In this document: positions 8,365 through 56,138 of the stretch, in pieces | Layout: each line of letters opens with the position of its first letter | Position numbering within the stretch: the first letter of the stretch is position 1 | Assembly: GCA_030765065.1 (NCBI GenBank) | Contig: CM060978.1 | Coordinates: 111,271,692-111,335,691, forward strand | Length of the DNA stretch: 64,000 nt | DNA from: Deroplatys truncata | Taxonomy: Eukaryota > Arthropoda > Insecta > Mantodea > Mantidae | Reading direction: 5' to 3' | Notes under the pieces: generated by a model | The model's database searches: none | Told to the model about the DNA's origin: nothing | What the model saw: the letters and a program-made list of their open reading frames with translations, nothing else | Made by a program: the position numbers and the translations under genes

Positions 8365-8700
8365 TGTAGATCTCTTTAAAACTCAGAATTTATTTAAAAT
8401 TACTTTTTTGTGGCATAAGCCATTTATGAGATATCCGTTATTAATGGTCCGAATTGCTCAATACTTTGTCATTCTTTTAAAGCCCTGTCGAGTTTCTTGC
8501 GATTGCATGGAATTTTAAGGCAGCGTATAGCGCCGTTACCTTTGTATCTACAATGAAATGTGCAATGTAGTTATTTCTTCAAAGGTCTATCTCGGTTAAA
8601 GAAAAGTTGATAGAAAAAAATTTTCCGATGTGTTACATTCACGTGACTTTCTCTACGCTCTAATTATTCTTACGGAAGCTTATTTTACACGATGACTGTG
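8365..8700 (-). repeat. L/R repeat fragments
   Basis: 8365-8612 matches the diverged minus-strand subfamily (compare 5640-5890). It is followed by a forward L-module start, GATGTGTTACATTCACGTGA, at about 8630-8700, which is truncated. Confidence 0.65.
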
Positions 8701-11516: not shown

Positions 11517-12907
11517 GACACTGACGTCTGTGAAAATTGCGACACCAAGAAAGAATTATCGAATAACTCCAAACTTGGTGGAAGTCTAGAAGCGTGTGCA
11601 AGCAATAAGTGATTAGGTTTACAGAGAGATGGGGTAGACGTAGGCCGAGCAGAGCCCTCTCGTGTCGGTCCGACAAGGTCAGTGTTGCGCCCAATGTAGT
11701 CAGTGCAGAGCTGTCAAACAAGGTGGAAACAATAAAGTGAGTGCCAGTATGCCTCTCGACGTCAAAGGGAGCCATATCGCCATGTGAGCGAGTTCGAACG
11801 GGATCTCTGGGAAGCGAGTTTGTCATACCCTGACATTTCGACTCGTACAGGGCATGCTGCTACGACAGTGATGCGTGTGTGGAAGCAGTGGATAGGTGAA
11901 GGTCGTACACATCGAAGAGCGGTTATTGGAACACGGAACATGACCACAGCACAGGATGACCGTCATCTTGTCCGCATAACGAACCATACAGCTTCATCCA
12001 CAGTGTTGGCTTTACGCTGGAGCACTGCACCAGGTGTGAACTTGTTTGCACCAACGGTTCGTCGCCGTCTGCTGAAGGTTGGACTGGTTGCATGCATGCC
12101 ATTACGTCGGCTTCAATTGTCAAGAAACCACAAGCTCCTCCGACTGCAATGGGCACGTGAACACCGTCAATGGGGTGCTGAGCGGCAAAATGTAGTCTTT
12201 TCGGACGAATCCCGCTTCAACCTGTCCTACAGTGACGGCCGCATACGTGTCCGGCGGTACGTAGTGAGCGTAACCTGGAGGGCTGCATTGTTGAGCGGCA
12301 TAGCGGAGAAACACCAGGTGTGATGGTTTGGGTCGCCATTGGTTACAACAACCGATCTCGCCTCCTACGAATTGACGGCACTTTGAACTGCAACCGGTAC
12401 CTAACGGTGGTTGCAGAGCGTGAGGTACTCCCCCTACTTCAGGCATCTCCACAGGCCACATTTCAACAGGACAATGCCCGGCCACATATTGCGAGGAATG
12501 TACAAGCCTTCTTCGAAGAGCGACGGGTACCATTGCTTCCCTGGTCTGCACGTTCGCCTGACACGTCGCCCATCGAACATGTCTGGGATATGGTTGGTCG
12601 GCACCTGGTGCGTCACGGTCTTCCAGTAACCAGTGTCACGGATTTGTGGACTCGAATACAAACTGCGTGGCGGGAAATCCCTCAGGAAGTTATTCAGAAC
12701 GTTTTTTATTCAATGCCATGGCGTACAGCAGCTCTAATTGCAACGCATGAAGACTGTACGAAATACTGAATATTAGGGCTCAAAGGTCATGTATAGATTT
12801 AAAAAGTTTATCATTTATTACTTGTCATGAACATAACCTGTGGTATTAAATTCATTGAATTCACGCGTTTCCTTCTTGGTGTTGCAATTGTCACAAACGG
12901 CAGTGTA
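11517..12907 (+). mobile_element. Tc1-like transposon, nearly complete
   Basis: The element is about 1391 bp long and flanked by TA at 11515-11516 and 12908-12909. Terminal inverted repeats of about 37 bp begin CACTGACGTCTGTG at the left. The right end is the complement of CACTGCCGTTTGTG followed by the shared ACACCAAGAA. It encodes one transposase (11749-12766), now frameshifted. Insertion into an older L/R repeat copy (halves at 11457-11516 and 12908-13020) fixes both ends independently of the inverted repeats. Confidence 0.92.
11749..12766 (+). pseudogene. Tc1-type DD34E transposase, two frameshifts
   Basis: Cut-and-paste transposase of the Tc1 family. The start at 11749 (ATGCCTCTCGAC) fits the family N-terminus, and a frameshift near 11783 shifts into the 11784-12322 frame. 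This frame carries the paired helix-turn-helix region and the first catalytic Asp in FSDESRF (GAC at 12204). A second frameshift between about 12260 and 12310 moves into the 12320-12766 frame, with the second Asp in QQDNARPH (GAC at 12470) and the Glu in SPIEHVWD (GAA at 12575). The last two are 34 residues apart, the DD34E spacing. All three catalytic residues survive, so inactivation comes from the indels alone, and the element is probably fairly young. The product would act in the nucleus on its own terminal repeats. Confidence 0.93.
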
Positions 12908-15350: not shown

Positions 15351-17493
15351 CCCTGTTTCTAAAACAGGCTCATTAATTACTGTGTTGATTTCACACACAC
15401 CCTTCTTATCCACATCCAAATTTTTCCTCACTTAGCCGCAAACCCTCAGTTTTCCCACTATACAATGTCATTCTGCATACAAAACACGCTACTTACCTCC
15501 ACCACAGGTTTTGTGGAATATGTTTCTTCTTTTATTAAAGCCTTTCTTTGTCATTACTGTTATCTGATTCACTTCATGGCAATCCCGAGTGTCTAAAGCT
15601 TCCACTTTCTTCATCACTTCATTTGGAACAATTAAAGTATCTTCATTGCCCTTCTTCTAGTAACTATATATTTATTCCGCAATCCTTGCCGTTGTAATTT
15701 ACTTCCATTAGTATTGTTGCTTACAATCGTCGCACAAATATTTAGGAAAGTGAGTGGTGGGGGCAGGCCGTCACCATCACTGGCTGGTTTCTGATATTGT
15801 CAGGTAACTAGGCACCTATGAAAAGCATTAAATTATTAAACTGCTTTTTTGTTTATTTTATTTTTTGTTTTTTCAAATATGTATAAATTTAGATTTAGTA
15901 CACCACTAACGTAGTAATTATTCCTCACCTGTAGAATGCACAACTTATCGTACCTAATCTGTATTCGTTATCTGAATCTCTTTCCTTGTCGGTTTCACAC
16001 GTTCCATAATTCAGTATTATTTCTCATTTTTTGTGCTTGTTTTATATACATCTGTGAATCTATTATTATATAAACGTTTTCTATGACACCCGGTATCAAA
16101 TAATGCAGTTCAACAACCTTTTTATCTCCCTAGAGCTTTCCAGATTATACTTTCCGTTTAACTTGAGCACAAAACCGTTCTCAGAGCTTTAGACAACACT
16201 GGCATATCGTTAGTGACAAAACCTTGTATCCATGTTCTAAAGCTGTCTACCTCGACAGTTGTTTCTTTGTTTCGTTTATTTCCGACTACGTGATGGACCG
16301 TACATTTCGTTTAGTGTGTGTTCAGGAATTAAATATTGCTTTTTCTTCATATACTTTTGGATAGCTGCTGAACTGGATGTTCATGTTTACCTACTTCGTA
16401 ATAAAACTCACGACTCGCTTGCAATGTTGCCAACCAAAAAGCCAGGGTTTCACTTTGAAGCTATTGGGAGAGAGAAAGGGGAGAAAGTCATCATTACGTA
16501 CTAAGAATTACACACAAAACATGGAAAGCTTTTCAGTAAGTTACAGATGATATTCATCCAGTTTTTTATTTATTCCGACATTTTTAGGCCTATATCAAAC
16601 GGGTATAGTTTGATATTATATACCAAAATATACTTGTGATTATGTATGATGAGTGATCATACATAATGATTATAAAATGGTAATAAAATGTATCAAACAT
16701 AAACATGAAAAGTAGCCTATTTGCATACAAATACATATATAAATTGAAGAAGTTATGGGATTTCATTCATCATATAGTCCACGTTTTCGTTTTTAGAGAA
16801 ATGATACAGTGTTTATCAGATTATTTTTGGGTATTCTTTTCTGTATTTATCGAACTTCACTCACAACAAATCAGTGTTTCAAATTTTAGACTTCCATTTC
16901 CTTTTTCCAGCTTTATCTTCAGTCATCACATGGGCAGTATACAACTTTGGATTCCTCTAATTTAAGACCAGTTTCTTTTGTGCTTAATTTCGCAAAATAT
17001 GGAAAATATTCTCATCAGAAAAAGCTTTCATTTCACTTACTGCACATCCAACTTCAATGTTGCTTTCACACTTAGTAGCTTATCCTTTTTGCTCCAGAAA
17101 CGTACATTGACAGGTTATATAGGTCCATCATTACATTATATACCAACATGTTAGATTTGCATACCTGAGACAGTCATGCAAATTCAGAAAGGCGAAATTC
17201 TGTCAGCGCTTAGTAATCCAGTATGGTTAAGGTTTTAAGAATAATAGTTATGCTTTTGGTCAAAAGATAGGAACTAAGATTTTTTGGAGCAGAAAAATGA
17301 TATAACTACCAAAACTCCTCCACCCTTCCTACGTTTTTTTTTACTATGTATGTTTTTCTTCAACACTATCAAATTGTGCTACGCATGGCAACACCACTTG
17401 CTACTACGCAGGTACAAATCTTTTCTGGCACGCAGCTGCCTGATTATACTCCACTGTTGCCCCATCACTTTCTTAAACATTTCTGCCACTACT
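15351..17493. other. no recognised feature
   Basis: AT-rich sequence with several open frames of 60-87 codons (16259-16504, 16705-16965, 17284-17547), hydrophobic and without recognisable domains. A run of imperfect ATACATAAT-type repeats lies near 16640-16680. The 17284 frame runs into the satellite and is not a gene. Confidence 0.4.
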
Positions 17494-18604
17494 ATAGGAT
17501 ATGTTATTCAACGGAGGGGCACATCTCGCACACTGCGACCTACTTAGATCTATTGTGACGACCAACCCAGGAGGAAGGGAGGAAGTGAAGGAACCACAGG
17601 AGGCTACATTATAGGTATAGGTTATTCAACGGAGGGGCACACCTCGCACACTGCGACCTACATAGATCTATTGTGACGACCAACCCAGGAGGAAGGGAGG
17701 AAGTGAAGGAACCACAGGAGGCTACATTCTAGGTATAGGTTATTCAACGGAGGGGCGCGCCTCGCACACTGCGACCTACATAGATCTATTGTGGCTACCA
17801 CCCCAGGAGGAAGGGATGAAGTGAAGGAACCACAGGAGGCTACAGTATAGGTATAGGTTATTCAACAGAGGGGGACCCCTCGCACACTGCGACCTACATA
17901 GATCTATTGTGGCTACAACCCCAGGAGGAAGGGAGGAAGTGAAGGAACCACAGGAGGCTACAGTATAGGTATAGGTTATTCAACGGAGGGGCACACCTCG
18001 CACACTGCGACCTACATAGATCTATTGTGGCTACCACCCCAGGAGGAAGGGAGGAAGTGAAGGAACCACAGGAGGCTACAGTATAGGTATAGGTTATTCA
18101 ACAGAGGGGCACACCTCGCACACTGCGACCTACATAAATCTATTGTGGCTACCACCCCAGGAGGAAGGGATGAAGTGAAGGAACTACAGGAGGCTACAGT
18201 ATAGGTATAGGTTATTCAACAGAGGGGGACACCTAGCACACTGCGACCTACATAGATCTATTGTGACGACCACCCCAGGAGGAAGGGAGGAAGTGAAGGA
18301 ACCACAGGAGGCTAGAGTATAGGTATAGGTTATTCAACGGAGGGGCACATCTCGCACACTGCGACCTACTTAGATCTATTGTGACGACCAACCCAGGAGG
18401 AAGGGAGGAAGTGAAGGAACCACAGGAGGCTACAGTATAGGTATAGGTTATTCAACAGAGGGGGACACCTAGCACACTGCGACCTACATAGATCTATTGT
18501 GACGACCACCCCAGGAGGAAGGGAGGAAGTGAAGGAACCACAGGAGGCTAGAGTATAGGTATAGGTTATTCAACGGAGGGGCACATCTCGCACACTGCGA
18601 CCTA
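17494..18604 (+). repeat. 118-bp satellite array, left part
   Basis: About 9.4 head-to-tail units with period 118 bp (GTTATTCAAC starts at 17503, 17621, 17739, 17857 and so on). Each unit contains GACCTACATAGATCTATTGT and AGGAAGTGAAGGAACCACAG. Variants differ by a few bases (AACGGAGGGGCACA or AACAGAGGGGGACA; GACGACCAACC or GGCTACCACCC). The array stops at 18604, where the giant palindrome begins, and resumes in the same orientation at 33779. Confidence 0.95.
18599..18604 (+). other. left target-site duplication GACCTA
   Basis: The satellite phrase CTGCGACCTA ends here, and the next base starts the element (AGTAGATATAAC). The same six bases follow the right end of the element. Confidence 0.9.
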
Positions 18605-18644
18605 AGTAGATATAACATACCGACTCCAGCACACAGAGAGATGC

Positions 18645-18880
18645 CGACAAGCGATAAAGTTCTTTGTTCTACGCCGACAAGCCCCGCCCCCTCCCTTTGT
18701 GTGCTCACATGCCGCCAGGTCTCGTGTCGTTAGACCCCGCCCCCTCTCGCTTTGTGTGCTCACCTAATACCGACAGTATCTGTGCTAACAGGTTCTACCC
18801 CCTCCCCCATGCGTTCTACTGTGGCGTCATGACTTGATGGAATTGTTTTCTCGAGTCCTGCCGCCCCTCGGCAAATTAAT
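18645..18880 (+). repeat. GC-rich subterminal block, left arm
   Basis: Two direct repeats carry CCCCGCCCCCTC followed by CTTTGTGTGCTCAC (about 18685 and 18737), with a weaker third (CCCCCTCCCCC near 18790). GCCGACAAG occurs twice at the outer edge. Such C-rich subterminal repeats could bind a transposition protein or act as GC-box promoter sites. This is inference from position only. Confidence 0.6.
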
Positions 18881-19337
18881 TAGGTAATGTTCGTCAAACA
18901 TTTTTTTTTATGATTACTAAGGTCTGCAGATTGCATCCTCGAGCAATTAAGTTTTTTTGATTAATGAATTGTTGACTGGAGCTTGAGTATAAGTAGTCTG
19001 CTCACGGGAACAGTCTGTCATGTAATGAAACACTGCAGCCTTCTTGTATCTGGGGAAATCGCTTGTCCATTAGCTGAACATGTTAGACGCTTTCAACACA
19101 TTAATAGGCTTTTAAGTTTACATTCCGGATCTGTTTACATACATTAGCGATCAACGACATACTTCCGTCTGGAGGTAACGGTGACACACATTAGCTGACC
19201 CGTTAGACGCTTTCACCCCATTAGCGAACAATGTCAGTAATTGTTTTCCTAAGTGCTCTGCCCAACACTCAACACTTTAGATTTTAGCGATGGAAATGAT
19301 ATAAAAAGCAGCAGCTTCTCCAACGAGTTCCAAGTTG

Positions 19338-21222
19338 ACCAGGATGCCCGGGTTCGAATTACAAATTCAGCTTCTAATAACTCAGAGACTAATTACGATA
19401 AAGACATCAAATAAAGTTTATTACATTAATGTCATTAGATAGTTTCTTGTGAATGTATATTTGGGTACATGGTGTCCAGGGTTCGAATACCGATAAAATG
19501 TAATTTAATTATAAATTTAATAACTCCTAAACTAATTAAGATAAAGACGCCAAATAAACTTTATTGCCTTTATTTTATTAGGTAGTATCTTGTGGATGTG
19601 TAATTAGATACCTGACGTTCTGGGTTCGAGCCTAATGTTTAAATCGTCATTATCTCAGAAACTAAGAGAGGTAGAGGAATTGACCAAAGCATGATTGATA
19701 GCTCCTATGATGGGTAATTAATACTGTATATAATTTTCAATCAGTTGTCCTTACTTCGAATCCCGATCTTTCAATCACTTACTTATTTTTTCTCTATACT
19801 CTAGAATATGTCACTTAGATTGATGCTGTAACTGCATACACAACCTTTAAACATATCAAACTAATATTGTAAATAATTTTGTTTCTGGTGTCCAGGGTTC
19901 GAATACCGATAAAATGTAATTTAATTATAAATTTAATAACTTCTAAACTAATTAAGATAAAGACGCCAAATAAACTTTATTGTCTTTATATTATTAGGTA
20001 CTATCTTGTGGATGTGTAATTAGATACCTGACGTTCTGGGTTCGATCCTAATTTTAAATCGTCATTATCTCAGAAACTCAGAGAGGTAGACGAGTGAACC
20101 AAAGCATGATTGATAGCTCCTATAAGGGGTAATTAATACTGTATATAATTTTCAATCAGTTGTCCTTACTTCGAATCCCGATCTTTCAATCACATACTTA
20201 TTTTTCTCTATACTCTAGAATATATCACTTAGATTGATGCTGTAACTGTATACAGCACCTTTAAACATATCAAACTAATATTGTAAATAATTTTGTTTCT
20301 GGTGTCCAGGGTTCGAATACCGATAAAATGTAGTTTAATTATAAATTTAATAACTTCTAAACTAATTAAGATAAAGACGCCAAATAAACTTTATTGCCTT
20401 TTATGTTATTAGGTATTATCTTGTGGATGTGTAATTAGATACCTGACGTTCTGGGTTCGAGCCTAATTTTAAATCGTCATTATCTCAGAAACTAAGAGAG
20501 GTAGACGAGTGAACCAAAGCATGATTGATAGCTCCTATGATGGGCAATTAATACTGTATATAATTTTCAATCAGTTATCCTTACTTCGAATCCCGATCTT
20601 TCAATCACTTACTTATTTTTTCTCTATACTCTAGAATATATCACTTAGATTGATGCTGTAAATGTATACAGTACCTTTAAACATATCAAACTAATATTGT
20701 AAATAATTTTGTTTCTGGTGTCCAGGGATCGAATACCGATAAAATGTAATTTAATTATAAATTTAATAACTCCTAAACTAATTAAGATAAAGACGCCAAA
20801 TAAACTTTATTGCGTTTATGTTACTAGGTAGTATCTTGTGGATGTGTAATTAGATACCTGACGTTCTGGGTTCGAGCCTAATGTTTAAATCGTCATTATC
20901 TCAGAAACTAAGAGAGGTAGAGGAATTGACCAAAGCATGATTGATAGCTCCTATGAGGGGCAATTAATACTGTATATAATTTTCAATCAGCTGTCCTTAC
21001 TTCGAATCCCGATCTTTCAATCACTTACTTATTTTTCTCTATACTCTAGAATATATCACTTAGATTGATGCTGTAAATGCATACAGCACCCTTAAACATA
21101 TCAAACTAATATTGTAAATAATATTGGTTCTGGTGTCCAGGGTTCGAATACCGATAAAATGTAATTTAATTATAAATTTAATAACTCCTAAACTAATTAA
21201 GATAAAGACACCAAATAAACTT
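19338..21222 (+). repeat. 415-bp higher-order tandem repeat, left arm
   Basis: GGTGTCCAGGGTTCGAATAC begins units at 19471, 19887, 20301, 20717 and 21132, a period of 414-416 bp, giving four full units plus partial ones at both ends. Each unit holds three related sub-blocks about 138 bp apart, each headed by a TTCGAA/TTCGAG phrase (for example GGGTTCGAGCC about 150 bp in, ACTTCGAATCCC about 284 bp in). The 415-bp unit is therefore an old trimer. The outermost piece (19338-19470) is a single diverged sub-block. Confidence 0.92.
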
Positions 21223-21224
21223 TT

Positions 21225-21860
21225 ATAGGGGAAAGGATGCTCTCCTGAAACATTAGGTCTCTAGATAGAAGTATTTATAGGGGAGAGATAGGGAATACCA
21301 GGGCTGATGCTAGGCTAGTCAGATGCTAAAGGAGGGAGGGATATGCTTTATACGAGAGAGATAGGGAACACAAGGAAAGATGCTATACTAAACAGGACTT
21401 GAAGGGTAGAATATGAGCGATATAGCAAACCGAGGAGAGGTATTAGGATAGGAGTTTTGAATGATGGAGTAGGCGTTTATATGCGAGAGATAGGGAATAC
21501 GAGGTTCGATGCTAGGCTAGACGGTGTTGAATGAGGGAATGCATCTTATATGAGAGAGGTAGGGGAATATGAGGAGAAGTGCTAGGCTAGTCGGGAAGGT
21601 CTGAATGAGAGAGTATACGTCTATATGGGAAAATATAGGGAAAACGAAGGTAGGTGCTAGGTTGAGAGAGTCTTCAAGGAGGAAAATGCATTTATATGAG
21701 AGCGTTAGGGCATACGAGGAGAGGTGCTAGTCTAGACATGGTTTGAGGATTAGAGTATACGTTTATATGGGAGAAATATGGAAAACGGGAGAGATACAAG
21801 GATAGACAGAGATTGAATGAGGAGGAATGTAGGTTTATACTGTAATATAGAGAGTAATTC
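21225..21860 (+). repeat. ~70-bp degenerate tandem repeat, left arm
   Basis: Eight to nine diverged units with the pattern TTATATGGGAGAGATAGGGAA, then ACGAGGAGAGGTGCTAGGCT, then a TTGAATGAGGGA-like segment. The first unit is preceded by one copy of the AAAGGATGCTCTC motif at about 21235. Confidence 0.8.
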
Positions 21861-22427
21861 GATTATAAAACTTTTCTCATCCAGCCTTACAACACTTTTA
21901 TATACTTATTTTCTAAACCTTACAAACTTTATATTTGTTAAACAGTAGTGCGCGAGACGGAGAGGGACAAACAGTATATCGGTTTACAGTGAAGTATACA
22001 TCCTAACCTATTCCCACCTTGTTTGTTCTGGATCTTCTCATTGTCTATCATCTAACGTAAACACGTAACAAGACGTAACACAGGAAATCATACATATGGC
22101 ACATTAAAAAAATAAAGGTATATATAATGAAACATAAACAAGTAGACAGAGGGTCGTCGATACATAGAAAACCAGGAGTTGTATGTACTGAGACCATAGA
22201 TTAGTATAGGCAAACAACAAAGAAGTGAATTTATAGTGTAAATAGCCAAATATTTTCAAATATTATTATAGTCTAAAAGTATATAACTTAATTATGTATC
22301 GAGTATTGAGAAATAAACGTTATTCATTATTCACTAATCTCAGATCACTGCAATTGTATTGAATCAATTCACAATTGCTAATGCCATTCAACATTCATTC
22401 GTCTCTGATACATAAACAAATTGCAAA
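21861..22427. other. single-copy segment of left arm
   Basis: Single-copy within the arm (mirror 29543-30109). It contains AT-rich sequence with AAATAAACGTTATTCATTAT near 22311. It precedes the decayed Myb/SANT frame and so could have held its promoter. No clear TATA/Inr pair was identified. Confidence 0.4.
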
Positions 22428-22676
22428 ATGGAGAAGGACGAAAGTAATAAAAAGACTCAGGCAGCAAATTTTAAGAAAGAAGAGAAAGATATATGACCGA
22501 CATTGTTTTGGAACACAAATTAGTCTTGAAAATAAAATGACTGATAGCTCTGCTAAGCGTAAGGAAGAGACATGGAAATAAATTGCAAATGAATACAATT
22601 CTAGGTTGGAAAAGAAGATAAACAACATTCATGTAAACCAATTTTTAAAAATCAGTTTAACTGAATACATGTAAAA
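22428..22676 (+). pseudogene. decayed Myb/SANT-like (zeste-type) DNA-binding frame, left arm
   Basis: From the ATG at 22428 the frame reads a charged start, then NFKKEEKDI and a stop (about 22494). The next frame gives TDIVLEHK. A third frame gives LENKMTDSSAKRKEETWK, a stop, and then IANEYNSR. In that order these are the hallmarks of the Myb/SANT-like domain of insect FSBP/zeste-type proteins, which often accompany DNA transposons as a second ORF. At least two frameshifts and one stop disable it. The same breaks occur in the right arm, so it decayed before the arms became copies, or the arms have since been homogenised. The apparent 68-codon ORF starting upstream mixes frames and is not the ancestral protein. 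Confidence 0.6.
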
Positions 22677-22770
22677 AAACATATCACTTTACAAAAAGTA
22701 ATGCAGACAACATTTATTTTTTATAAACATTATCCTATTACATTACTTTACAAAAAACCATACATATTTC

Positions 22771-22980
22771 CTAAAGGCAAAGGTGATAGTCTAGACATTC
22801 TAAACACTCAGTTATATAATCATATACATCACACAGAAAGAGACCTGCATTATCAGTAAAAAAACTAAACATCTCAACAATGTCTGAATGATGTATTTTA
22901 TAAGTACAAGTTTTTTGATATTTCAAAGTTCCTGTTAACCATAGCAGTAATTGATTAACACAATTTCTCGATCCTGTCAT
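22771..22980 (-). CDS. small downstream ORF overlapping the zinc-finger stop, left arm
   Basis: A 69-codon frame whose ATG overlaps the zinc-finger stop as ATGA (22977-22980). It is rich in Cys, Tyr and aromatic residues and has no recognised domain. It could be translated by termination-reinitiation or may simply be 3' UTR. The mirror copy at 28990-29199 differs by one residue (Glu to Val near codon 58). I consider it weak evidence of coding. Confidence 0.25.
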   Translation of the reverse strand: MTGSRNCVNQLLLWLTGTLKYQKTCTYKIHHSDIVEMFSFFTDNAGLFLCDVYDYITECLECLDYHLCL

Positions 22981-23444
22981 GCTATAACTTTAGATGCTTT
23001 CAGCTTACTTATAATTTCCTCAATCTCTTGTGTGTGACTATTATTACCAGCATCCCTCGACGCAATTAGTAACCTCAATATATTTACTAGTCTATTCGGA
23101 TTTTCAAGCGTTGATATCACTGAATCATCATCATCTGAAGATTTCATATTCTTGCAACTTCCGATGTATCCAGATTTTTCACCAACAGTAGTCTCCAGTG
23201 AAGGACAGAGGCTTGATCCGGTATAACATTCCCCTCTATACATCTTCGGATCTTCAAGTGCAGGTGAGAGAGTCGATTCAGTATAACATGTTGCTCTATG
23301 AAACTTAAATCTTGACAAAGAACGATTCTTAAAAATCCGCCCGCATACACAGCATCTAATAACGCGTTTTCCTCCATGTGTAATGTATGAAAAATCGTGT
23401 TTCTCATTCGTCAGTTGCACAGATTTTCCCGGGCAGTAGTTCAT
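22977..23444 (-). CDS. C2HC zinc-finger protein, left arm copy
   Basis: An intact 155-codon frame, identical in protein sequence to the right-arm copy at 28526-28993. Cys31, Cys34, His49 and Cys53 form C-x2-C-x14-H-x3-C with the context CGRIF, matching the ZC2HC1-type (zf-C2HC_2) finger, likely a nucleic-acid or protein-binding module. Residues 54-90 contain an imperfect duplication (CYTESTLSPALED and CYTGSSLCPSLET). The C-terminus (about 115-155) is a leucine/isoleucine-rich, probably helical segment. There is no signal peptide. Upstream of the ATG is a T-rich run ending in TTTTAG, which could be a splice acceptor, so a further 5' exon is possible. The function in the element is unknown; terminal-repeat binding is a guess. 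Confidence 0.7.
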   Translation of the reverse strand: MNYCPGKSVQLTNEKHDFSYITHGGKRVIRCCVCGRIFKNRSLSRFKFHRATCYTESTLSPALEDPKMYRGECYTGSSLCPSLETTVGEKSGYIGSCKNMKSSDDDDSVISTLENPNRLVNILRLLIASRDAGNNSHTQEIEEIISKLKASKVIA

Positions 23445-23583
23445 GCTAAAACTAAAAGAAATTAAATGAATACGTGAATGCTAACGCTCGAAGGAATTAA
23501 AAGCGAATGAATGAATTCATAACACGCACCTATGTATATATCCAGGATGAGGACGACGGAGGGAATTGCGATCAATGCATAGC

Positions 23584-23860
23584 AGGGAGAAAGGATACTC
23601 TCTTGAAACATTAGTCATCTAGACAACTATTGTTCACGGAGCCTGTAGACGTCAGGTTGAAGGGGACAGACCTCAGGTTCAAATCTTTAAGGGCACGGAC
23701 CCAGCCTTTTGCCTGTCATGTATACTAAACCATCCTAACAGCGTAACATTACGTTACAACGACACGTAACCAGAACATGGCGAGTGCGAGCATGGAAAAA
23801 AGGATGCTCTCTGGGAACATTACTGGAAAAGGATGCTCTCTGGAAACACTAGTCATCCAC
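23584..23860 (+). repeat. dispersed ~35-bp AAAGGATGCTCTC motif, left arm
   Basis: Copies begin at about 23591, 23797 and 23827, with a fourth at 21228. The core is AAAGGATRCTCTC followed by GAAACATTAGTCATCTAGAC in the fullest copies. Spacing is irregular, so it is not a tandem array. Confidence 0.7.
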
Positions 23861-23989
23861 ACAACGGGTTGTCCCTAACATTTCCAGATTTCGGGTCGTT
23901 CAACATCGTGACGCGCCCCTGTCATATACATTTCGACGAAATTTTACCTCCTGAATTAAAGTTTGGTGATCTGTATAGACCTGTACAAC

Positions 23990-25008
23990 ATGCATTACGC
24001 TATGTAACAGACTCATCACGTTATGTAACAACATGATCACGCTATGTAACAACATGATCACGCTATGTAACAACATGATCACGCTATGTAACAACCTGAG
24101 CACGTTATGTAACAACATGACTACGCTATGTAACAAAACGATCACGCTATGTAACAACTGATCACGCTATGTAACAACCTGAGCACGCTATGTAACAACA
24201 TGACCACGCTATGTAACAAAACGATCACGCTATGTAACAACTGATCACGCTATGTAACAACCTGAGCACGCTATGTAACAACCTGAGCACGCTATGTAAC
24301 AATACGATCATGCTATGTAACAACCTGATCACGCTATGTAACAACCTGATTACGCTATGTAACAATTGATCACGCTATGTAACAACATGATCACGCCATG
24401 TAACAACCTGAGCACGCTATGTAACAACATGATCATGCTATGTAACAACATGAACACGCTATGTAACAATACGATCACGCTATGTAACAATCTGATTACC
24501 TTGTAACAACGGATCACGCTATGTAACAACATGATCACGCTATGTAACAACCTGAGCACGCTATGTAACATCATGATCACGCTATGTAACAACCTGATCA
24601 CGCTATGTAACAACATGCTCACGCTATGTAACAACTGAACACGCTATGTAACAACATGATCACGCTATGTAACAACCTGAGCACGCTATGTAACAACATG
24701 ATCACGCTATGTAACAACATGTTCACGCTATGTAACAACACGATCACGCTATGTAACAACACGATCACGCTATGTAACAACATGGACACGCTATGTAACA
24801 ACATGAACACGCTATGTAACAATACGATCAAGCTATGTAACAACCTGAGCACGATATGTAACAACATGATCACGCTATGTAACAACATGAACACTCTATG
24901 TAACAACCTGAGCATCCTATGTAACAACATGATCACGCTATGTAACAACCTAATCACGCTATGTAACATGATCACGCTATGTAACAACATGATCACGCTA
25001 TGTAAATA
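23990..25008 (+). repeat. 20/21-bp minisatellite, left arm
   Basis: About 48 units of the form TGATCACGCTATGTAACAA plus two variable bases. Variants change TGATCA to TGAGCA or TGAACA, or alter the bases between AACAA and TGATC; some units are 20 or 18 bp. Because most units are 21 bp and lack stops, long repetitive open frames appear on both strands. They are by-products of the period, not genes. Confidence 0.95.
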
Positions 25009-25162
25009 GGGTGGACCATTTAAGTTGAGGCTATACAATATATCCAAAACTAAGCGTTGTAGAAAGAAATGTCTTTAATAAACTTGATTCATATTATGGC
25101 GAAAGTAAATGCTGCTAGTCGTATTTCGTTTGGAGGACGTAGTGAGGGTCATTTCAGGGTCT

Positions 25163-25200
25163 TTTTAAATGGGACCCTAATTGTAGGTTCCCATTTAAAA
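25163..25200. other. central hairpin of the palindrome
   Basis: TTTTAAATGGGA (25163-25174) pairs perfectly with TCCCATTTAAAA (25189-25200) around a 14-base loop. Outside it the arms stay complementary, but within about 40 bp of the centre they differ by small indels, unlike the near-identical sequence farther out. Confidence 0.9.
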
Positions 25201-25364
25201 GAATAAATTGACCCAAAATGACCCTCATAACGGCCTCCAAACGAAACACGACTAGCAGCATTTACTTTCGCCATAATATGAATCAAGTTTATTAAAGACA
25301 TTTCTTTCTACAACGCTTAGTTTTGGATATATTGTATAGCCTCAACTTAAATGGTCCACCCTAT

Positions 25365-27980
25365 TTACATAGCGTGATCATGTTGTTACATAGCGTGATC
25401 ATGTTACATAGCGTGATTAGGTTGTTACATAGCGTGATCATGTTGTTACATAGCATGCTCAGGTTGTTACATAGAGTGTTCATGTTGTTACATAGCGTGA
25501 TCATGTTGTTACATATCGTGCTCAGGTTGTTACATAGCTTGATCGTATTGTTACATAGCGTGTTCATGTTGTTACATAGCGTGTCCATGTTGTTACATAG
25601 CGTGATCGTGTTACATAGCGTGATCGTGTTGTTACATAGCGTGAACATGTTGTTACATAGCGTGATCATGTTGTTACATAGCGTGCTCAGGTTGTTACAT
25701 AGCGTGATCATGTTATTACATAGCGTGATCAGTTGTTACATAGCGTGAGCATGTTGTTACATAGCGTGATCAGGTTGTTACATAGCGTGATCATGATGTT
25801 ACATAGCGTGCTCAGGTTGTTACATAGCGTGATCATGTTGTTACATAGCGTGATCCGTTGTTACATAGTAATCAGATTGTTACATAGCGTGATCGTATTG
25901 TTACATAGCGTGTTCATGTTGTTACATAGCGTGATCATGTTGTTACATAGCGTGCTCAGTTTGTTACATGGCGTGATCATGTTGTTACATAGCGTGATCA
26001 GTTGTTACATAGCGTAATCAGGTTGTTACATAGCGTGATCAGGTTGTTACATAGCATGATCGTATTGTTACATAGCGTGCTCAGGTTGTTACATAGCGTG
26101 CTCAGGTTGTTACATAGCGTGATCAGTTGTTACATAGCGTGATCGTTTTGTTACATAGCGTGGTCATGTTGTTACATAGCGTGCTCAGGTTGTTACATAG
26201 CGTGATCAGTTGTTACATAGCGTGATCGTTTTGTTACATAGCGTAGTCATGTTGTTACATAACGTGCTCAGGTTGTTACATAGCGTGATCATGTTGTTAC
26301 ATAGCGTGATCAGTTGTTACATAGCGTAATCAGATTGTTACATAGCGTGATCGTATTGTTACATAGCGTGTTCATGTTGTTACATAGCGTGAACATGTTG
26401 TTACATAGCGTGCTCAGGTTGTTACATAGCTTGATCGTTTTGTTGCATGGCGTGATCATGTTGTTACATAGCGTGAACATGTTGTTACATAGCGTGCTCA
26501 GGTTGTTACATAGCTTAATCGTTTTGTTACATAGCGTGATCATGTTGTTACATAGCTTGATCGTTTTGTTACATAGCATGATCATGTTGTTACATAGTGT
26601 GGTCATGTTGTTACATAGCGTGATCATGTTGTTACATAGCGTGAACATGTTGTTACATAGCGTGAACATGTTGTTACATAGCGTGATCATGTTGTTACAT
26701 AGCTTGAGCATGTTGTTACATAGCGTGATCAGTTGTTACATAGCGTGATCAGGTTGTTACATAGCGTGCTCAGGTTGTTACATAGCGTGATCAGTTGTTA
26801 CATAGCTTGATCAGGTTGTTACATAGCGTGATCGTGTTGTTACATAGCTTGATCGTTTTGTTACATAGCGTGATCATGTTGTTACATAGTGTGGTCATGT
26901 TGTTACATAGCGTGATCATGTTGTTACATAGCGTGAACATGTTGTTACATAGCGTGATCATGTTGTTACATAGCGTGAACATGTTGTTACATAGCTTGAG
27001 CATGTTGTTACATAGCGTGATCAGTTGTTACATGGCGTGATCATGTTGTTACATAGCGTACTCAGGTTGTTACATAGCGTGATCATGTTGTTACATAGCT
27101 TGATCAGGTTGTTACATAGCGTGATCAGTTGTTACATAGATTGAGCATGATGTTACATAGCGTGATCAGTTGTTACATGGCGTGATCATGTTGTTACATA
27201 GCGTACTCAGGTTGTTACATAGCGTGATCATGTTGTTACATAGCGTGCTCAGGTTGTTACATAGCGTGATCATGTTGTTACATAGCGTGATCAGTTGTTA
27301 CATAGCTTGATCAGGTTGTTACATAGCGTGATCAGTTGTTACATTGCGTGATCGTGTTGTACATAGCGTGATCGTGTTGCTACATAGCGTGATCGTTTTG
27401 TTACATAGCGTGGTCATGTTGTTACATAGCGTGAACATGTTGTTACATAGCGTGATCATGTTGTTACATAGCGTGATCATGTTGTTACATAGCGTGATCA
27501 TGTTGTTACATAGCGTGATCAGTTGTTACATAACGTGATCAGATTGTTACATAGCGTGCTCAGGTTGTTACATAGCGTGATCATGTTGTTACATAGCGTG
27601 ATCAGTTGTTACATAGCTTGAGCATGTTGTTACATAGCGTGATCAGTTGTTACATGGCGTGATCATGTTGTTACATAGCGTACTCAGTTTGTTACATAGC
27701 CTGATCATGTTGTTACATAGCGTGCTCAGGTTGTTACATAGCATGATCATGTTGTTACATAGCGTGATCAGTTGTTACATAGCTTGATCGTTTTGTTACA
27801 TAGCGTGGTCATGTTGTTACATAGCGTGATCATGTTGTTACATAGCGTGATCATGTTGTTACATAGCGTGATCATGTTGTTACATGGCGTGATCATGTTG
27901 TTACATAGCGTGATCATGTTGTTACATAGCGTGATCATGTTGTTACATAACGTGATGAGTCTGTTACATAGCGTAATGCA
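25365..27980 (-). repeat. 20/21-bp minisatellite, right arm (expanded)
   Basis: Reverse complement of the left array but about 2.6 kb, roughly 123 units. The order of variants near the centre matches the left arm, including the shortened unit ATCATGTTACATAGCG at about 25397. The TAGTCATG and ACGTGCTCAGG variants near 26245-26275 match the left-arm variants near 24097-24125. Beyond that point the right array has about 75 extra units. Confidence 0.95.
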
Positions 27981-28109
27981 TGTTGTACAGGTCTATACAG
28001 ATCACCAAACTTTAATTCAGGAGGTAAAATTTCGTCGAAATGTATATGACAGGGGCGCGTCACGATGTTGAACGACCCGAAATCTGGAAATGTTAGGACA
28101 ACCCGTTGT

Positions 28110-28386
28110 GTGGATGACTAGTGTTTCCAGAGAGCATCCTTTTCCAGTAATGTTCCCAGAGAGCATCCTTTTTTCCATGCTCGCACTCGCCATGTTCTGG
28201 TTACGTGTCGTTGTAACGTAATGTTACGCTGTTAGGATGGTTTAGTATACATGACAGGCAAAAGGCTGGGTCCGTGCCCTTAAAGATTTGAACCTGAGGT
28301 CTGTCCCATTCAACCTGACGTCTACAGGCTCCGTGAACAATAGTTGTCTAGATGACTAATGGTTCAAGAGAGTATCCTTTCTCCCT
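28110..28386 (-). repeat. dispersed AAAGGATGCTCTC motif, right arm
   Basis: Mirror of 23584-23860, with the motif complement GAGAGCATCCTTT at about 28132 and 28161 and GAGAGTATCCTTT at about 28369. At least two single-base differences from the left arm are visible (for example GGTTCAAG instead of GTTTCAAG). Confidence 0.7.
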
Positions 28387-28525
28387 GCTATGCATTGATC
28401 GCAATTCCCTCCGTCGTCCTCATCCTGGATATATACATAGGTGCGTGTTATGAATTCATTCATTCGCTTTTAATTCCTTCGAGCGTTAGCATTCACGTAT
28501 TCATTTAATTTCTTTTAGTTTTAGC

Positions 28526-28993
28526 ATGAACTACTGCCCGGGAAAATCTGTGCAACTGACGAATGAGAAACACGATTTTTCATACATTACACATGGAGGA
28601 AAACGCGTTATTAGATGCTGTGTATGCGGGCGGATTTTTAAGAATCGTTCTTTGTCAAGATTTAAGTTTCATAGAGCAACATGTTATACTGAATCGACTC
28701 TCTCACCTGCACTTGAAGATCCGAAGATGTATAGAGGGGAATGTTATACCGGATCAAGCCTCTGTCCTTCACTGGAGACTACTGTTGGTGAAAAATCTGG
28801 ATACATCGGAAGTTGCAAGAATATGAAATCTTCAGATGATGATGATTCAGTGATATCAACGCTTGAAAATCCGAATAGACTAGTAAATATATTGAGGTTA
28901 CTAATTGCGTCGAGGGATGCTGGTAATAATAGTCACACACAAGAGATTGAGGAAATTATAAGTAAGCTGAAAGCATCTAAAGTTATAGCATGA
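28526..28993 (+). CDS. C2HC zinc-finger protein, right arm copy
   Basis: 155 codons, ATG at 28526 and TGA at 28991. It is the same protein as the left copy: finger Cys31, Cys34, His49, Cys53 with the CGRIF context, an internal CYT duplication, an acidic DDDDS stretch near residue 105 and a hydrophobic helical C-terminus. It reads outward from the palindrome centre. A T-rich stretch ending TTTTAGTTTTAG just before the start (28510-28524) resembles a splice acceptor. An AATAAA at about 29252 lies 260 bp downstream and could serve as the poly(A) signal, which would put the small ORF 28990-29199 in the same transcript. No protein difference between arms despite point changes in the flanks hints at constraint or gene conversion, but the sample is small. 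Confidence 0.7.
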   Translation: MNYCPGKSVQLTNEKHDFSYITHGGKRVIRCCVCGRIFKNRSLSRFKFHRATCYTESTLSPALEDPKMYRGECYTGSSLCPSLETTVGEKSGYIGSCKNMKSSDDDDSVISTLENPNRLVNILRLLIASRDAGNNSHTQEIEEIISKLKASKVIA

Positions 28994-29199
28994 CAGGATC
29001 GAGAAATTGTGTTAATCAATTACTGCTATGGTTAACAGGAACTTTGAAATATCAAAAAACTTGTACTTATAAAATACATCATTCAGACATTGTTGAGATG
29101 TTTAGTTTTTTTACTGATAATGCAGGTCTCTTTCTGTGTGATGTATATGATTATATAACTGTGTGTTTAGAATGTCTAGACTATCACCTTTGCCTTTAG
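28990..29199 (+). CDS. small downstream ORF overlapping the zinc-finger stop, right arm
   Basis: A 69-codon frame overlapping the zinc-finger stop by ATGA. Same caveats as the left-arm copy: no domain, one residue difference, possibly 3' UTR. Confidence 0.25.
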   Translation: MTGSRNCVNQLLLWLTGTLKYQKTCTYKIHHSDIVEMFSFFTDNAGLFLCDVYDYITVCLECLDYHLCL

Positions 29200-29293
29200 G
29201 AAATATGTATGGTTTTTTGTAAAGTAATGTAATAGGATAATGTTTATAAAAAATAAATGTTGTCTGCATTACTTTTTGTAAAGTGATATGTTT

Positions 29294-29542
29294 TTTTACA
29301 TGTATTCAGTTAAACTGATTTTTAAAAATTGGTTTACATGAATGTTGTTTATCTTCTTTTCCAACCTAGAATTGTATTCATTTGCAATTTATTTCCATGT
29401 CTCTTCCTTACGCTTAGCAGAGCTATCAGTCATTTTATTTTCAAGACTAATTTGTGTTCCAAAACAATGTCGGTCATATATCTTTCTCTTCTTTCTTAAA
29501 ATTTGCTGCCTGAGTCTTTTTATTACTTTCGTCCTTCTCCAT
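29294..29542 (-). pseudogene. decayed Myb/SANT-like frame, right arm
   Basis: Mirror of 22428-22676. The ATG is the complement of 29540-29542, and the same frame breaks and in-frame stop recur. It lies convergent with the zinc-finger gene, so the two 3' ends face each other in each arm. Confidence 0.6.
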
Positions 29543-30109
29543 TTTGCAATTTGTTTATGTATCAGAGACGAATGAATGTTGAATGGCATTAGCAATTGTG
29601 AATTGATTCAATACAATTGCAGTGATCTGAGATTAGTGAATAATGAATAACGTTTATTTCTCAATACTCGATACATAATTAAGATATATACTTTTAGACT
29701 ATAATAATATTTGAAAATATTTGGCTATTTACACTATAAATTCACTTCTTTGTTGTTTGCCTATACTAATCTATGGTCTCAGTACATACAACTCCTGGTT
29801 TTCTATGTATCGACGACCCTCTGTCTACTTGTTTATGTTTCATTATATATACCTTTATTTTTTTAATGTGCCATATGTATGATTTCCTGTGTTACGTCTT
29901 GTTACGTGTTTACGTTAGATGATAGACAATGAGAAGATCCAGAACAAACAAGGTGGGAATAGGTTAGGATGTATACTTCACTGTAAACCGATATACTGTT
30001 TGTCCCTCTCCGTCTCGCGCACTACTGTTTAACAAATATAAAGTTTGTAAGGTTTAGAAAATAAGTATATAAAAGTGTTGTAAGGCTGGATGAGAAAAGT
30101 TTTATAATC
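29543..30109. other. single-copy segment of right arm
   Basis: Mirror of 21861-22427. A few single-base differences (for example TTAAGATATATAC versus the left TATATAACTTAA). No gene seen. Confidence 0.4.
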
Positions 30110-30745
30110 GAATTACTCTCTATATTACAGTATAAACCTACATTCCTCCTCATTCAATCTCTGTCTATCCTTGTATCTCTCCCGTTTTCCATATTTCTCC
30201 CATATAAACGTATACTCTAATCCTCAAACCATGTCTAGACTAGCACCTCTCCTCGTATGCCCTAACGCTCTCATATAAATGCATTTTCCTCCTTGAAGAC
30301 TCTCTCAACCTAGCACCTACCTTCGTTTTCCCTATATTTTCCCATATAGACGTATACTCTCTCATTCAGACCTTCCCGACTAGCCTAGCACTTCTCCTCA
30401 TATTCCCCTACCTCTCTCATATAAGATGCATTCCCTCATTCAACACCGTCTAGCCTAGCATCGAACCTCGTATTCCCTATCTCTCGCATATAAACGCCTA
30501 CTCCATCATTCAAAACTCCTATCCTAATACCTCTCCTCGGTTTGCTATATCGCTCATATTCTACCCTTCAAGTCCTGTTTAGTATAGCATCTTTCCTTGT
30601 GTTCCCTATCTCTCTCGTATAAAGCATATCCCTCCCTCCTTTAGCATCTGACTAGCCTAGCATCAGCCCTGGTATTCCCTATCTCTCCCCTATAAATACT
30701 TCTATCTAGAGACCTAATGTTTCAGGAGAGCATCCTTTCCCCTAT
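30110..30745 (-). repeat. ~70-bp degenerate tandem repeat, right arm
   Basis: Mirror of 21225-21860, eight to nine units, ending at the AAAGGATGCTCTC motif complement near 30725-30740. Confidence 0.8.
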
Positions 30746-33045
30746 AAAAGTTTATTTGGTGTCTTTATCTTAATTAGTTTAGGAGTTATTAAATTTATAA
30801 TTAAATTACATTTTATCGGTATTCGAACCCTGGACACCAGAACCAATATTATTTACAATATTAGTTTGATATGTTTAAGGGTGCTGTATGCATTTACAGC
30901 ATCAATCTAAGTGATATATTCTAGAGTATAGAGAAAAATAAGTAAGTGATTGAAAGATCGGGATTCGAAGTAAGGACAGCTGATTGAAAATTATACACAG
31001 TATTAATTGCCCCTCATAGGAGCTATCAATCATGCTTTGGTCAATTCCTCTACCTCTCTTAGTTTCTGAGATAATGACGATTTAAACATTAGGCTCGAAC
31101 CCAGAACGTCAGGTATCTAATTACACATCCACAAGATACTACCTAGTAACATAAACGCAATAAAGTTTATTTGGCGTCTTTATCTTAATTAGTTTAGGAG
31201 TTATTAAATTTATAATTAAATTACATTTTATCGGTATTCGATCCCTGGACACCAGAAACAAAATTATTTACAATATTAGTTTGATATGTTTAAAGGTGCT
31301 GTATACATTTACAGCATCAATCTAAGTGATATATTCTAGAGTATAGAGAAAAAATAAGTAAGTGATTGAAAGATCGGAATTCGAAGTAAGGATAACTGAT
31401 TGAAAATTATATACAGTATTAATTGCCCATCATAGGAGCTATCAATCATGCTTTGGTTCACTCGTCTACCTCTCTTAGTTTCTGAGATAATGACGATTTA
31501 AAATTAGGCTCGAACCCAGAACGTCAGGTATCTAATTACACATCCACAAGATAATACCTAATAACATAAAGGCAATAAAGTTTATTTGGCGTCTTTATCT
31601 TAATTAGTTTAGAAGTTATTAAATTTATAATTAAACTACATTTTATCGGTATTCGAACCCTGGACACCAGAAACAAAATTATTTACAATATTAGTTTGAT
31701 ATGTTTAAAGGTGCTGTATGCAGTTACAGCATCAATCTAAGTCATATATTCTAGAGTATAGAGAAAAATAAGTAAGTGATTGAAAGATCGGGATTCGAAG
31801 TAAGGACAACTGATTGAAAATTATATACAGTATTAATTACCCCTCATAGGAGCTATCAATCATGCTTTGGTTCACTCGTCTACCTCTCTTAGTTTCTGAG
31901 ATAATGACGATTTAAAATTAGGCTCGAACCCAGAACGTCAGGTATCTAATTACACATCCACAAGATAATACCTAATAACATAAAAGGCAATAAAGTTTAT
32001 TTGGCGTCTTTATCTTAATTAGTTTAGAAGTTATTAAATTTACAATTAAACTACATTTTATCGGTATTCGAACCCTGGACACCAGAAAAAAAATTATTTA
32101 CAATATTAGTTTGATATGTTTAAAGGTGCTGTATACAGTTACAGCATCAATCTAAGTGATATATTCTAGAGTATAGAGAAAAATAAGTATGTGATTGAAA
32201 GATCGGGATTCGAAGTAAGGACAACTGATTGAAAATTATATACAGTATTAATTACCCCTTATAGGAGCTATCAATCATGCTTTGGTTCACTCGTCTACCT
32301 CTCTGAGTTTCTGAGATAATGACGATTTAAAATTAGGCTCGAACCCAGAACGTCAGGTATCTAATTACACATCCACAAGATAGTACCTAATAATATAAAG
32401 ACAATAAAGTTTATTTGGCGTCTTTATCTTAATTAGTTTAGAAGTTATTAAATTTATAATTAAATTACATTTTATCGGTATTCGAACCCTGGACACCAGA
32501 AACAAAATTATTTACAATATTAGTTTGATATGTTTAAAGGTTGTGTATGCAGTTACAGCATCAATCTAAGTGACATATTCTAGAGTATAGAGAAAAAATA
32601 AGTAAGTGATTGAAAGATCGGGATTCGAAGTAAGGACAACTGATTGAAAATTATATACAGTATTAATTACCCATCATAGGAGCTATCAATCATGCTTTGG
32701 TCAATTCCTCTACCTCTCTTAGTTTCTGAGATAATGACGATTTAAACATTAGGCTCGAACCCAGAACGTCAGGTATCTAATTACACATCCACAAGATACT
32801 ACCTAATAAAATAAAGGCAATAAAGTTTATTTGGCGTCTTTATCTTAATTAGTTTAGGAGTTATTAAATTTATAATTAAATTACATTTTATCGGTATTCG
32901 AACCCTGGACACCATGTACCCAAATATACATTCACAAGAAACTATCTAATGACATTAATGTAATAAACTTTATTTGATGTCTTTATCGTAATTAGTCTCT
33001 GAGTTATTAGAAGCTGAATTTGTAATTCGAACCCGGGCATCCTGG
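30746..33045 (-). repeat. 415-bp higher-order tandem repeat, right arm
   Basis: The complement of GGTGTCCAGGGTTCGAATAC occurs six times (near 30820, 31240, 31655, 32070, 32488 and 32895), one more than in the left arm. The added unit accounts for about 415 bp of the arm-length difference. The single outer sub-block is also present (about 32915-33045). Confidence 0.92.
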
Positions 33046-33504
33046 TCAACTTGGAACTCGTTGGAGAAGCTGCTGCTTTTTATATCATTTCCATCGCTAA
33101 AATCTAAAGTGTTGAGTGTTGGGCAGAGCACTTAGGAAAACAATTACTGACATTGTTCGCTAATGGGGTGAAAGCGTCTAACGGGTCAGCTAATGTGTGT
33201 CACCGTTACCTCCAGACGGAAGTATGTCGTTGATCGCTAATGTATGTAAACAGATCCGGAATGTAAACTTAAAAGCCTATTAATGTGTTGAAAGCGTCTA
33301 ACATGTTCAGCTAATGGACAAGCGATTTCCCCAGATACAAGAAGGCTGCAGTGTTTCATTACATGACAGACTGTTCCCGTGAGCAGACTACTTATACTCA
33401 AGCTCCAGTCAACAATTCATTAATCAAAAAAACTTAATTGCTCGAGGATGCAATCTGCAGACCTTAGTAATCATAAAAAAAAATGTTTGACGAACATTAC
33501 CTAA

Positions 33505-33740
33505 TTAATTTGCCGAGGGGCGGCAGGACTCGAGAAAACAATTCCATCAAGTCATGACGCCACAGTAGAACGCATGGGGGAGGGGGTAGAACCTGTTAGC
33601 ACAGATACTGTCGGTATTAGGTGAGCACACAAAGCGAGAGGGGGCGGGGTCTAACGACACGAGACCTGGCGGCATGTGAGCACACAAAGGGAGGGGGCGG
33701 GGCTTGTCGGCGTAGAACAAAGAACTTTATCGCTTGTCGG
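33505..33740 (-). repeat. GC-rich subterminal block, right arm
   Basis: Reverse complement of 18645-18880, practically identical, with GAGGGGGCGGGGTCTAACGA and GAGGGGGCGGGGCTTGTCGG as the two direct repeats. Confidence 0.6.
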
Positions 33741-33778
33741 CATCTCATGTGGGCTCAAGTCGCCATTATATCTCTACT

Positions 33779-33784
33779 GACCTA
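33779..33784 (+). other. right target-site duplication GACCTA
   Basis: It follows CTCTACT, the right end of the palindrome, and continues into the satellite unit as GACCTACTTAGATCTATTG. Confidence 0.9.
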
Positions 33785-35140
33785 CTTAGATCTATTGTGA
33801 CGACCAACCCAGGAGGAAGGGAGGAAGTGAAGGAACCACAGGAGGCTACAGTATAGGTATAGGTTATTCAACGGAGGGGCACATCTCGCACACTGCGACC
33901 TACATGGATCTATTGTGACGACCAACCCAGGAGGAAGGGAGGAAGTGAAGGAACCACAGGAGGCTACAGTATAGGTATAGGTTATTCAACGGAGGGGCAC
34001 ATCTCGCACACTGCGACCTACATGGATCTATTGTGACGACCAACCCAGGAGGAAGGGAGGAAGTGAAGGAACCACAGGAGGCTACAGTATAGGTATAGGT
34101 TATTCAACGGAGGGGCACACCTCGCACACTGCGACCTACATAGATCTATTGTGGCTACCACCCCAGGAGGAAGGGAGGAAGTGAAGGAACCACAGGAGGC
34201 TACATTATAGGTATAGGTTATTCAACGGAGGGGCACATCTCGCACACTGCGACCTACATAGATCTATTGTGGCTACCACCCCAGGAGGAAGGGATGAAGT
34301 GAAGGCACCACAGGAGGCTACAGTATAGGTATAGGTTATTCAACGGAGGGGCACACTTCGCACACTGCGACCTACATAGATCTATTGTGACGACCAACCC
34401 AGGAGGAAGGGAGGAAGTGAAGGAACCACAGGAGGCTACATTATAGGTATAGGTTATTCAACGGAGGGGCGCGCCTCGCACACTGCGACCTACATAGATC
34501 TATTGTGACTACCACCCCAGGAGGAAGGGATGAAGTGAAGGAACCACAGGAGGCTACAGTATAGGTATAGGTTATTCAACGGAGGGGCACACCTCGCACA
34601 CTGCGACCTACATAGATCTATTGTGGCTACCACCTCAGGAGGAAGGGAGGAAGTGAAGGAACCACAGGAGGCTACAGTATAGGTATAGGTTATTCAACGG
34701 AGGGGGACACCTCGCACACTGCGACCTACATAGATCTATTGTGACGACCAACCCAGGAGGAAGGGAGGAAGTGAAGGAACCACAGGAGGCTACAGTATAG
34801 GTATAGGTTATTCAACGGAGGGGCACACCTCGCACACTGCGACCTACATAGATCTATTGTGACGACCAACCCAGGAGGAAGGGAGGAAGTGAAGGAACCA
34901 CAGGAGGCTACAGTATAGGTATAGGTTATTCAACGGAGGGGCACACCTCGCACACTGCGACCTACATAGATCTATTGTGACGACCAACCCAGGAGGAAGG
35001 GAGGAAGTGAAGGAACCACAGGAGGCTACATTATAGGTATAGGTTATTCAACGGAGGGGCACACCTCGCACACTGCGACCTACGTAGATCTATTGTGGCT
35101 ACCACCCCAGGAGGAAAGGATGAAGTGAAAGAACCACAGG
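33779..35140 (+). repeat. 118-bp satellite array, right part
   Basis: About 11.5 units in the same orientation as the left part, so the palindrome was inserted into a continuous array. It ends at 35140, where the unit breaks into unrelated sequence. Confidence 0.95.
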
Positions 35141-35144
35141 AGGG

Positions 35145-56136: not shown

Positions 56137-56138
56137 TA

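Follow-up and report, generated by a model that had tools for sequence, protein, structure and literature searches.

Introduction

The palindromic element described here is a 15,174-bp insert in the genome of the mantid Deroplatys truncata (GenBank assembly GCA_030765065.1, contig CM060978.1). It lies within a stretch of 64,000 nucleotides, hereafter the window, which spans positions 111,271,692 to 111,335,691 of the forward strand and to which all plain coordinates refer. Its closest described counterparts are the Maverick/Polintons, the foldback elements Galileo and Tetris, the virophages and other helper-dependent satellites, and the symmetric defective genomes of protein-primed viruses. 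Judged from sequence, the insert is probably a non-autonomous foldback satellite of a Maverick/Polinton that the same genome harbours, and it is very likely that it and its palindromic relatives depend on such a helper.

Replication of Mavericks has been deduced mainly from their gene content. Virophages and other satellites use the functions of a helper, as the palindromes presumably would, and protein-primed viruses, adenovirus among them, give rise to symmetric defective genomes that are large palindromes with a replication origin at both ends. Among the foldback elements, a Galileo copy of 9,021 bp with repeats of 4,246 and 4,680 bp and no transposase segment is described in the excerpted text of PMC4168063. 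The excerpts of PMC4168063 and PMC4079207 place Galileo and Tetris in the P superfamily and, tentatively, Mutator. For vertebrate Mavericks a length of 16.9 +/- 1.7 kb is given in the excerpted text of PMC8097293. No report of palindromic non-autonomous Polintons was found among the papers listed in searches of openly licensed PMC literature.

The element resembles the Maverick/Polintons in its 6-bp target-site duplication (TSD), its AG...CT ends (AGTAGA...TCTACT), a terminal repeat in common with the resident Polintons and a size near 17 kb. It differs from them in consisting almost entirely of inverted repeat, with no integrase, polymerase, capsid or ATPase gene detected in it; moreover, AGTAGA is one base off the (AGT)2 of vertebrate Mavericks, so that the doubled end motif is matched only imperfectly (PMC8097293, excerpted text). 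With Galileo and Tetris it has very long inverted repeats, internal tandem arrays and little centre in common, whereas the Polinton ends and duplications, the longer arms and the dozens of palindromic copies set it apart. Since its TSD is 6 bp long and not 8-10 bp as in Tetris, foldback names a structure here, not a descent, and the foldback structure is extended to the Polinton class. Unlike virophages, the palindromes have no capsid gene that could be found, are known here from sequence alone, and would have as their helper a Maverick in an animal genome. Unlike symmetric defective viral genomes, they form a stable inherited lineage with an open reading frame (ORF) of their own and a common centre.

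Structure of the palindromic element

The two arms, 18605-25174 (6,570 bp) and 25189-33778 (8,590 bp), are reverse complements joined at a 14-nt loop. A preliminary description of the locus had reported this near-perfect palindrome, its insertion as a unit into a satellite array, the 6-bp duplication and the AG...CT ends, and had suggested kinship with Maverick/Polintons; all of these are supported. When the flanks are joined without the insert, the 118-bp satellite phase is intact, with 4 mismatches to the tandem consensus in 180 positions. The features are as follows.

18605..33778, no strand: palindromic element, 15,174-bp insert
18599..18604, no strand: left target-site duplication, GACCTA
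33779..33784, no strand: right target-site duplication, GACCTA
18605..19231, plus strand: left terminal region, type A end, about 627 bp, 98-99% identical to the terminal repeat of four type-A Polintons
33152..33778, minus strand: right terminal region, outermost ~45 nt of type B, remainder mirroring the left arm
19470..21223, plus strand: 415-bp tandem array of the left arm, 4.2 copies
30747..32914, minus strand: 415-bp tandem array of the right arm, 5.2 copies
22977..23444, minus strand: ORF of 155 amino acids (aa) in the left arm, with a Cys/His-rich N-terminal part and a Polinton-derived C-terminal tail
28526..28993, plus strand: 155-aa ORF of the right arm, the same ORF as in the left arm
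23985..25005, minus strand: 21-bp array of the left arm, about 48 copies
25365..27986, plus strand: 21-bp array of the right arm, about 126 copies
25175..25188, no strand: 14-nt loop CCCTAATTGTAGGT at the palindrome centre, within an asymmetric stem common to other copies
17493..18604, plus strand: 118-bp satellite array left of the insertion (the tandem-repeat call ends at 18611, a few bases inside the element)
33779..35143, plus strand: 118-bp satellite array right of the insertion

Once the centre, the tandem arrays and the ~50 nt at the outer ends are left out, 4 of 3,680 aligned bases differ between the arms; in addition, the arms are unequal by one unit of the 415-bp array and by about 1.6 kb in the 21-bp array. 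A chance origin was rejected, given kilobases of near-exact reverse complement. The ends are unlike over the outermost ~45 nt (9 mismatches and one gap in the first 300 alignment columns) because they belong to two different end types, A and B. Asymmetry also marks the central ~60 nt; the preliminary description mentions neither point.

The 415-bp unit contains the stretch GGTTCGAATACC, which resembles a tRNA B box, and we presume that a piece of a short interspersed nuclear element may be present; neither a tRNA nor an Rfam family at gathering score was found within the window. Units of 21 bp sharing TTACATAGCG form arrays in both types of palindrome, the window type and the more divergent L023 type (L023, L072, L073); 21 bp corresponds to two helical turns and could fit a repeated binding site.

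Family size and classification of copies

The preliminary description had proposed a search for further copies with AGTAGA ends and 6-bp duplications and for an autonomous partner; such copies, and a likely partner, are present in the 4.29-Gb genome. Allowing up to two mismatches, the 22-nt pattern of the left end (type A) gave 303 matches (159 + 144) and the 25-nt pattern of the right end (type B) 325 (172 + 153), with none for either reversed pattern used as control. Exact matches (41 type A, 88 type B) form 16 AA, 36 BB and 1 AB pairs with ends 13-19 kb apart, and 23 ends are unpaired. These 53 pairs were classed as 42 palindromes (11 AA, 30 BB, 1 AB) and 11 Maverick/Polintons (5 AA, 6 BB). 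Two of them were classed from one side, C83:16382 as a palindrome and C10:166309901 as a Polinton. Classification of one AA pair and 29 BB pairs used 200 bp on each side; in C12:185815121, one of these, the left match (89%) falls within the 21-bp array. The ends agree in 52 of the 53 pairs, the sole AB pair being the window element. The preliminary description had called mobile elements of this kind rare; in this genome they make up 42 of 53 exact-terminus pairs.

All 41 other palindromes of the exact set match the window arm in at least one interior place, mostly in sequence that the Polinton lacks. Six further pairs with one-mismatch ends, read on both sides, comprise the palindromes L023/24, L025/26, L027/28, H and J and the Polinton I; the one-mismatch place C16:269443514 shows an L023-type match on the one side read. 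Since exact matching selects for young copies, the ratio of 42 palindromes to 11 presumed helpers is not a whole-genome count; it hints that the ends and the terminal repeat are sufficient in cis.

Relationship to the resident Maverick/Polintons

Four Polintons fetched at length (L009/10, L011/12, L013/14 and L021/22) have a recurring set of frames, of which domain scans were made on copies L009 and L012. These frames match the rve integrase (1.5e-9), the double-jelly-roll capsid domain (1e-109) and the poxvirus A32 ATPase (7.8e-7), and one protein matches both a phospholipase A2-like family (9.3e-13) and adenovirus protein X (3e-7). A 1325-aa frame, unbroken in half of the four copies and split in the rest, has weak zinc-finger and endonuclease VII matches, matches two unnamed PHROGs and carries motifs of a polymerase of family B (PolB). 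For the integrase, 486 relatives reach E 1e-10 or better; among the 120 listed, the sole species named is Triatoma infestans (52%). The inverted repeat of the four Polintons measures 587-758 bp, their two ends match in type, and an exact 6-bp duplication is present in 4 of 4 Polintons read. The presumed autonomous partner has the same ends and TSD length, and its frames include an integrase and one with PolB motifs.

Over its outer 627 bp, the window arm matches the terminal repeat of four type-A Polintons with 98-99% identity. Further inside, 130 bp correspond at 87% to the end of the Polinton gene immediately preceding the integrase and encode the C-terminal tail of the 155-aa protein. The L023-type arm keeps larger Polinton stretches at 88-91% and the end at 82%. 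Exact 6-bp duplications flank 23 of 25 palindromes with both flanks read; the misses are L015/16, with 5 of 6 bases alike, and L017/18, with mirrored flanks. The weakest of the 23 is that of J, GGTACC, which is itself palindromic and lies inside mirrored flanks.

Scans of seven palindromes, namely the window element and six more, found no integrase, PolB, capsid or ATPase among frames of at least 150 aa, which are limited to the 155-aa ORF and frames in the 21-bp arrays. As PolB and integrase are absent from the palindromes and present in their sister elements, the palindromes are classed as non-autonomous derivatives and not as autonomous Polintons.

The palindrome with the GGTACC duplication (G000:C14:210344647-210362948; L096, L097) lies exactly in the middle of another inverted repeat; its flanks are alike for nearly the whole 2 kb read per side, and the first 551 bases are identical.

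The 155-aa protein

Each arm holds one 155-aa frame, counted from the first methionine (23444-22977 on the minus strand, 28526-28993 on the plus strand). Of 19 arm pieces examined, 18 are open from the Cys/His motif to the last residue; the remaining piece, and the N-terminus of several, are cut by the end of the fetched sequence. With one copy of each palindrome type compared, the rates of nonsynonymous (dN) and synonymous (dS) change are 0.021 and 0.161 in the C-terminal 42 aa and 0.084 and 0.084 in the first 113 aa, values that depend on 6 and 27 nucleotide changes. The tail therefore looks constrained at the sequence level and the first part does not.

The protein matches no Pfam family above cut-off and no PHROG. 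One weak relative, P0001, was found among 5.8 billion proteins (E 1.2e-3), aligned via the C-terminal tail, and a tblastn search against phages gave five matches, all with E 0.3. Copies D and B each have an amino-acid change in both ORFs that is seen in no other listed copy.

Inheritance and joint evolution of the arms

The asymmetric centre is common to eight of nine window-type copies checked (the window element, L031-L033 and L068-L071), with 96-100% identity across 135-140 bp, in one orientation or the other. The ninth, L019/20, which has lost the centre and part of one arm by deletion, gave no match, and in the L023 type the middle is different, a 21-bp array running in one direction. The window palindrome was therefore inherited and not formed at its present site. 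The preliminary description had suggested a dimer made from a hairpin-ended intermediate and then integrated here; a one-off dimer is rejected on the common centre, and the hairpin is kept as the preferred, unproven account of the likeness of the arms.

Within copies the arms resemble each other more than between copies. Mean differences are 2.75 bases within against 12.4 between eight window-type copies over 1.1 kb (6 of 100,000 shuffles as close), and 1.6 against 8.4 in nine copies over an overlapping 0.7 kb (0 of 100,000); for four L023-type copies the values are 2.25 and 19.6, with 4,161 of 100,000 shuffles as close at this sample size. These sets leave out K19 (and F in the longer stretch), which lack one arm, and G, which does not cover the stretch; the type-B copies likewise fall outside them. 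Both arms could be placed for 42 window-type palindromes, namely 41 from the exact set plus L027/28; in 26 of them the copy state of the 415-bp array is equal in the two arms (shuffled mean 10.7, with as many in 0 of 100,000 shuffles), and this holds without C12:185815121. A subset of 26 palindromes had given 18 equal; the count over 42 is the one relied on.

Types A and B each occur in Polintons and in palindromes. In an arm tree of 25 rows from 15 palindromes, the well-supported branches require three or more changes for label AA and likewise for label BB. The window arms group among mostly A-type copies, yet one end is B, and the element is plausibly an end exchange caught before the ends were made alike.

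Proposed mechanism and alternatives

In the proposed cycle, the protein-primed polymerase of the helper would start at the shared ends, and the helper integrase would insert the product. The displaced strand of a palindrome, being self-complementary, can fold over its full length into one long hairpin, and repair or copying inside it would keep the arms alike and leave the unpaired centre asymmetric. In the window copy one end would have been swapped for the other type shortly before insertion. Hairpin repair or copying would explain the common changes and repeat numbers of the arms; on these sequence patterns it is our preferred explanation, with about an even chance of being right. The co-evolving arms point to a self-pairing intermediate that could be sought, and the many copies are available for studying how an animal genome maintains long palindromes. 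Conceivable, although on present sequences doubtful, is that the palindromes are satellites in the virological sense, with a self-complementary genome of about helper length copied through a full-length hairpin and carried in helper particles, and with one small encoded protein that, through its conserved tail of helper origin, docks on helper functions or interferes with them.

Several points weigh against a helper-driven hairpin cycle. Replication, hairpin DNA and helper action are all deduced from sequence, and arm identity could come from chromosomal gene conversion, which fits most of the same facts. Searches of Pfam, PDB and PHROG linked the 1325-aa frame to no polymerase family, and we take it to be a protein-primed PolB from the motifs DINNLYG, NNAVYG and YMDTDS. 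Pairing of arms is not universal: strictly reciprocal nearest arms were found in 4 of 8, 6 of 9 and 4 of 4 copies of the 1.1-kb, 0.7-kb and L023-type sets, and the 415-bp copy state is unequal in 16 of 42 palindromes, the window element included, the difference being roughly 1 to 4 whole units. Like end labels cluster in the arm tree (5 changes in all against a shuffled mean of 9.9), so end exchange is infrequent. Palindrome lengths in the exact set (13.1-19.1 kb) are looser than those of the Polintons (16.6-17.1 kb), and size matching is a weak argument for packaging. Finally, at G000:C7:268744556-268761474 (L017, L018, L029, L030) about 700 bp of host flank are mirrored with almost no differences and no 6-bp TSD, which suggests chromosomal copying between arms.

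The strongest alternative, less likely than the hairpin though to be taken seriously, keeps the satellite and lets chromosomal gene conversion, as in other large inverted repeats, keep the arms similar without any hairpin. The mirrored flanks of L017/18 look as if arm-templated copying had overrun the element end, and the odd outer ~45 nt and asymmetric centre of the window copy are the places that conversion would reach least. However, conversion should work poorly at the extreme ends, where the neighbouring DNA is unrelated, and yet the end types agree in 52 of 53 exact pairs; those of the Polintons agree too, despite an inverted repeat of only 587-758 bp in four copies.

Far less probable is an ordinary cut-and-paste foldback element whose repeats grew by recombination, as considered for Galileo and Tetris, and which obtained its Polinton ends by coincidence or capture. 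Long repeats with tandem arrays and little centre are indeed known from such elements (PMC4079207, PMC4168063, excerpted text), but the 627 bp of terminal repeat at 98-99%, the common coding tail and the 6-bp duplications tie the palindromes to the Polintons, and the Tetris TSDs published in the excerpted PMC4079207 are 8-10 bp long.

Slighter still is the prospect that snap-back of a helper end generates every palindrome anew as a dimer, in the manner of a defective viral genome. The symmetric defective genomes of protein-primed viruses do have such a structure; against it stand the identical asymmetric centre in eight of nine copies and the interior matches of the 41 other exact-set palindromes to the window arm, mostly in sequence foreign to the Polinton. 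An assembly or library fold-back artefact, which can produce mirror structures in long-read data and for which the mirrored L017/18 flanks could speak, is the least probable account and is rejected as a general one on the duplications at 23 of 25 palindromes and on arms that differ by substitutions and whole repeat units.

Other features of the window

A Tc1/mariner-type transposase is split over two frames at 11736-12769 (HTH_Tnp_Tc3_2, 1.3e-11; DDE_3, 2.2e-5, below cut-off). An interspersed repeat is present in several copies, mostly 77-92% identical, at 1113-1970, 6440-8366, 40566-41416, 48644-49452, 50616-51436, 54660-56138 and 59694-60498.

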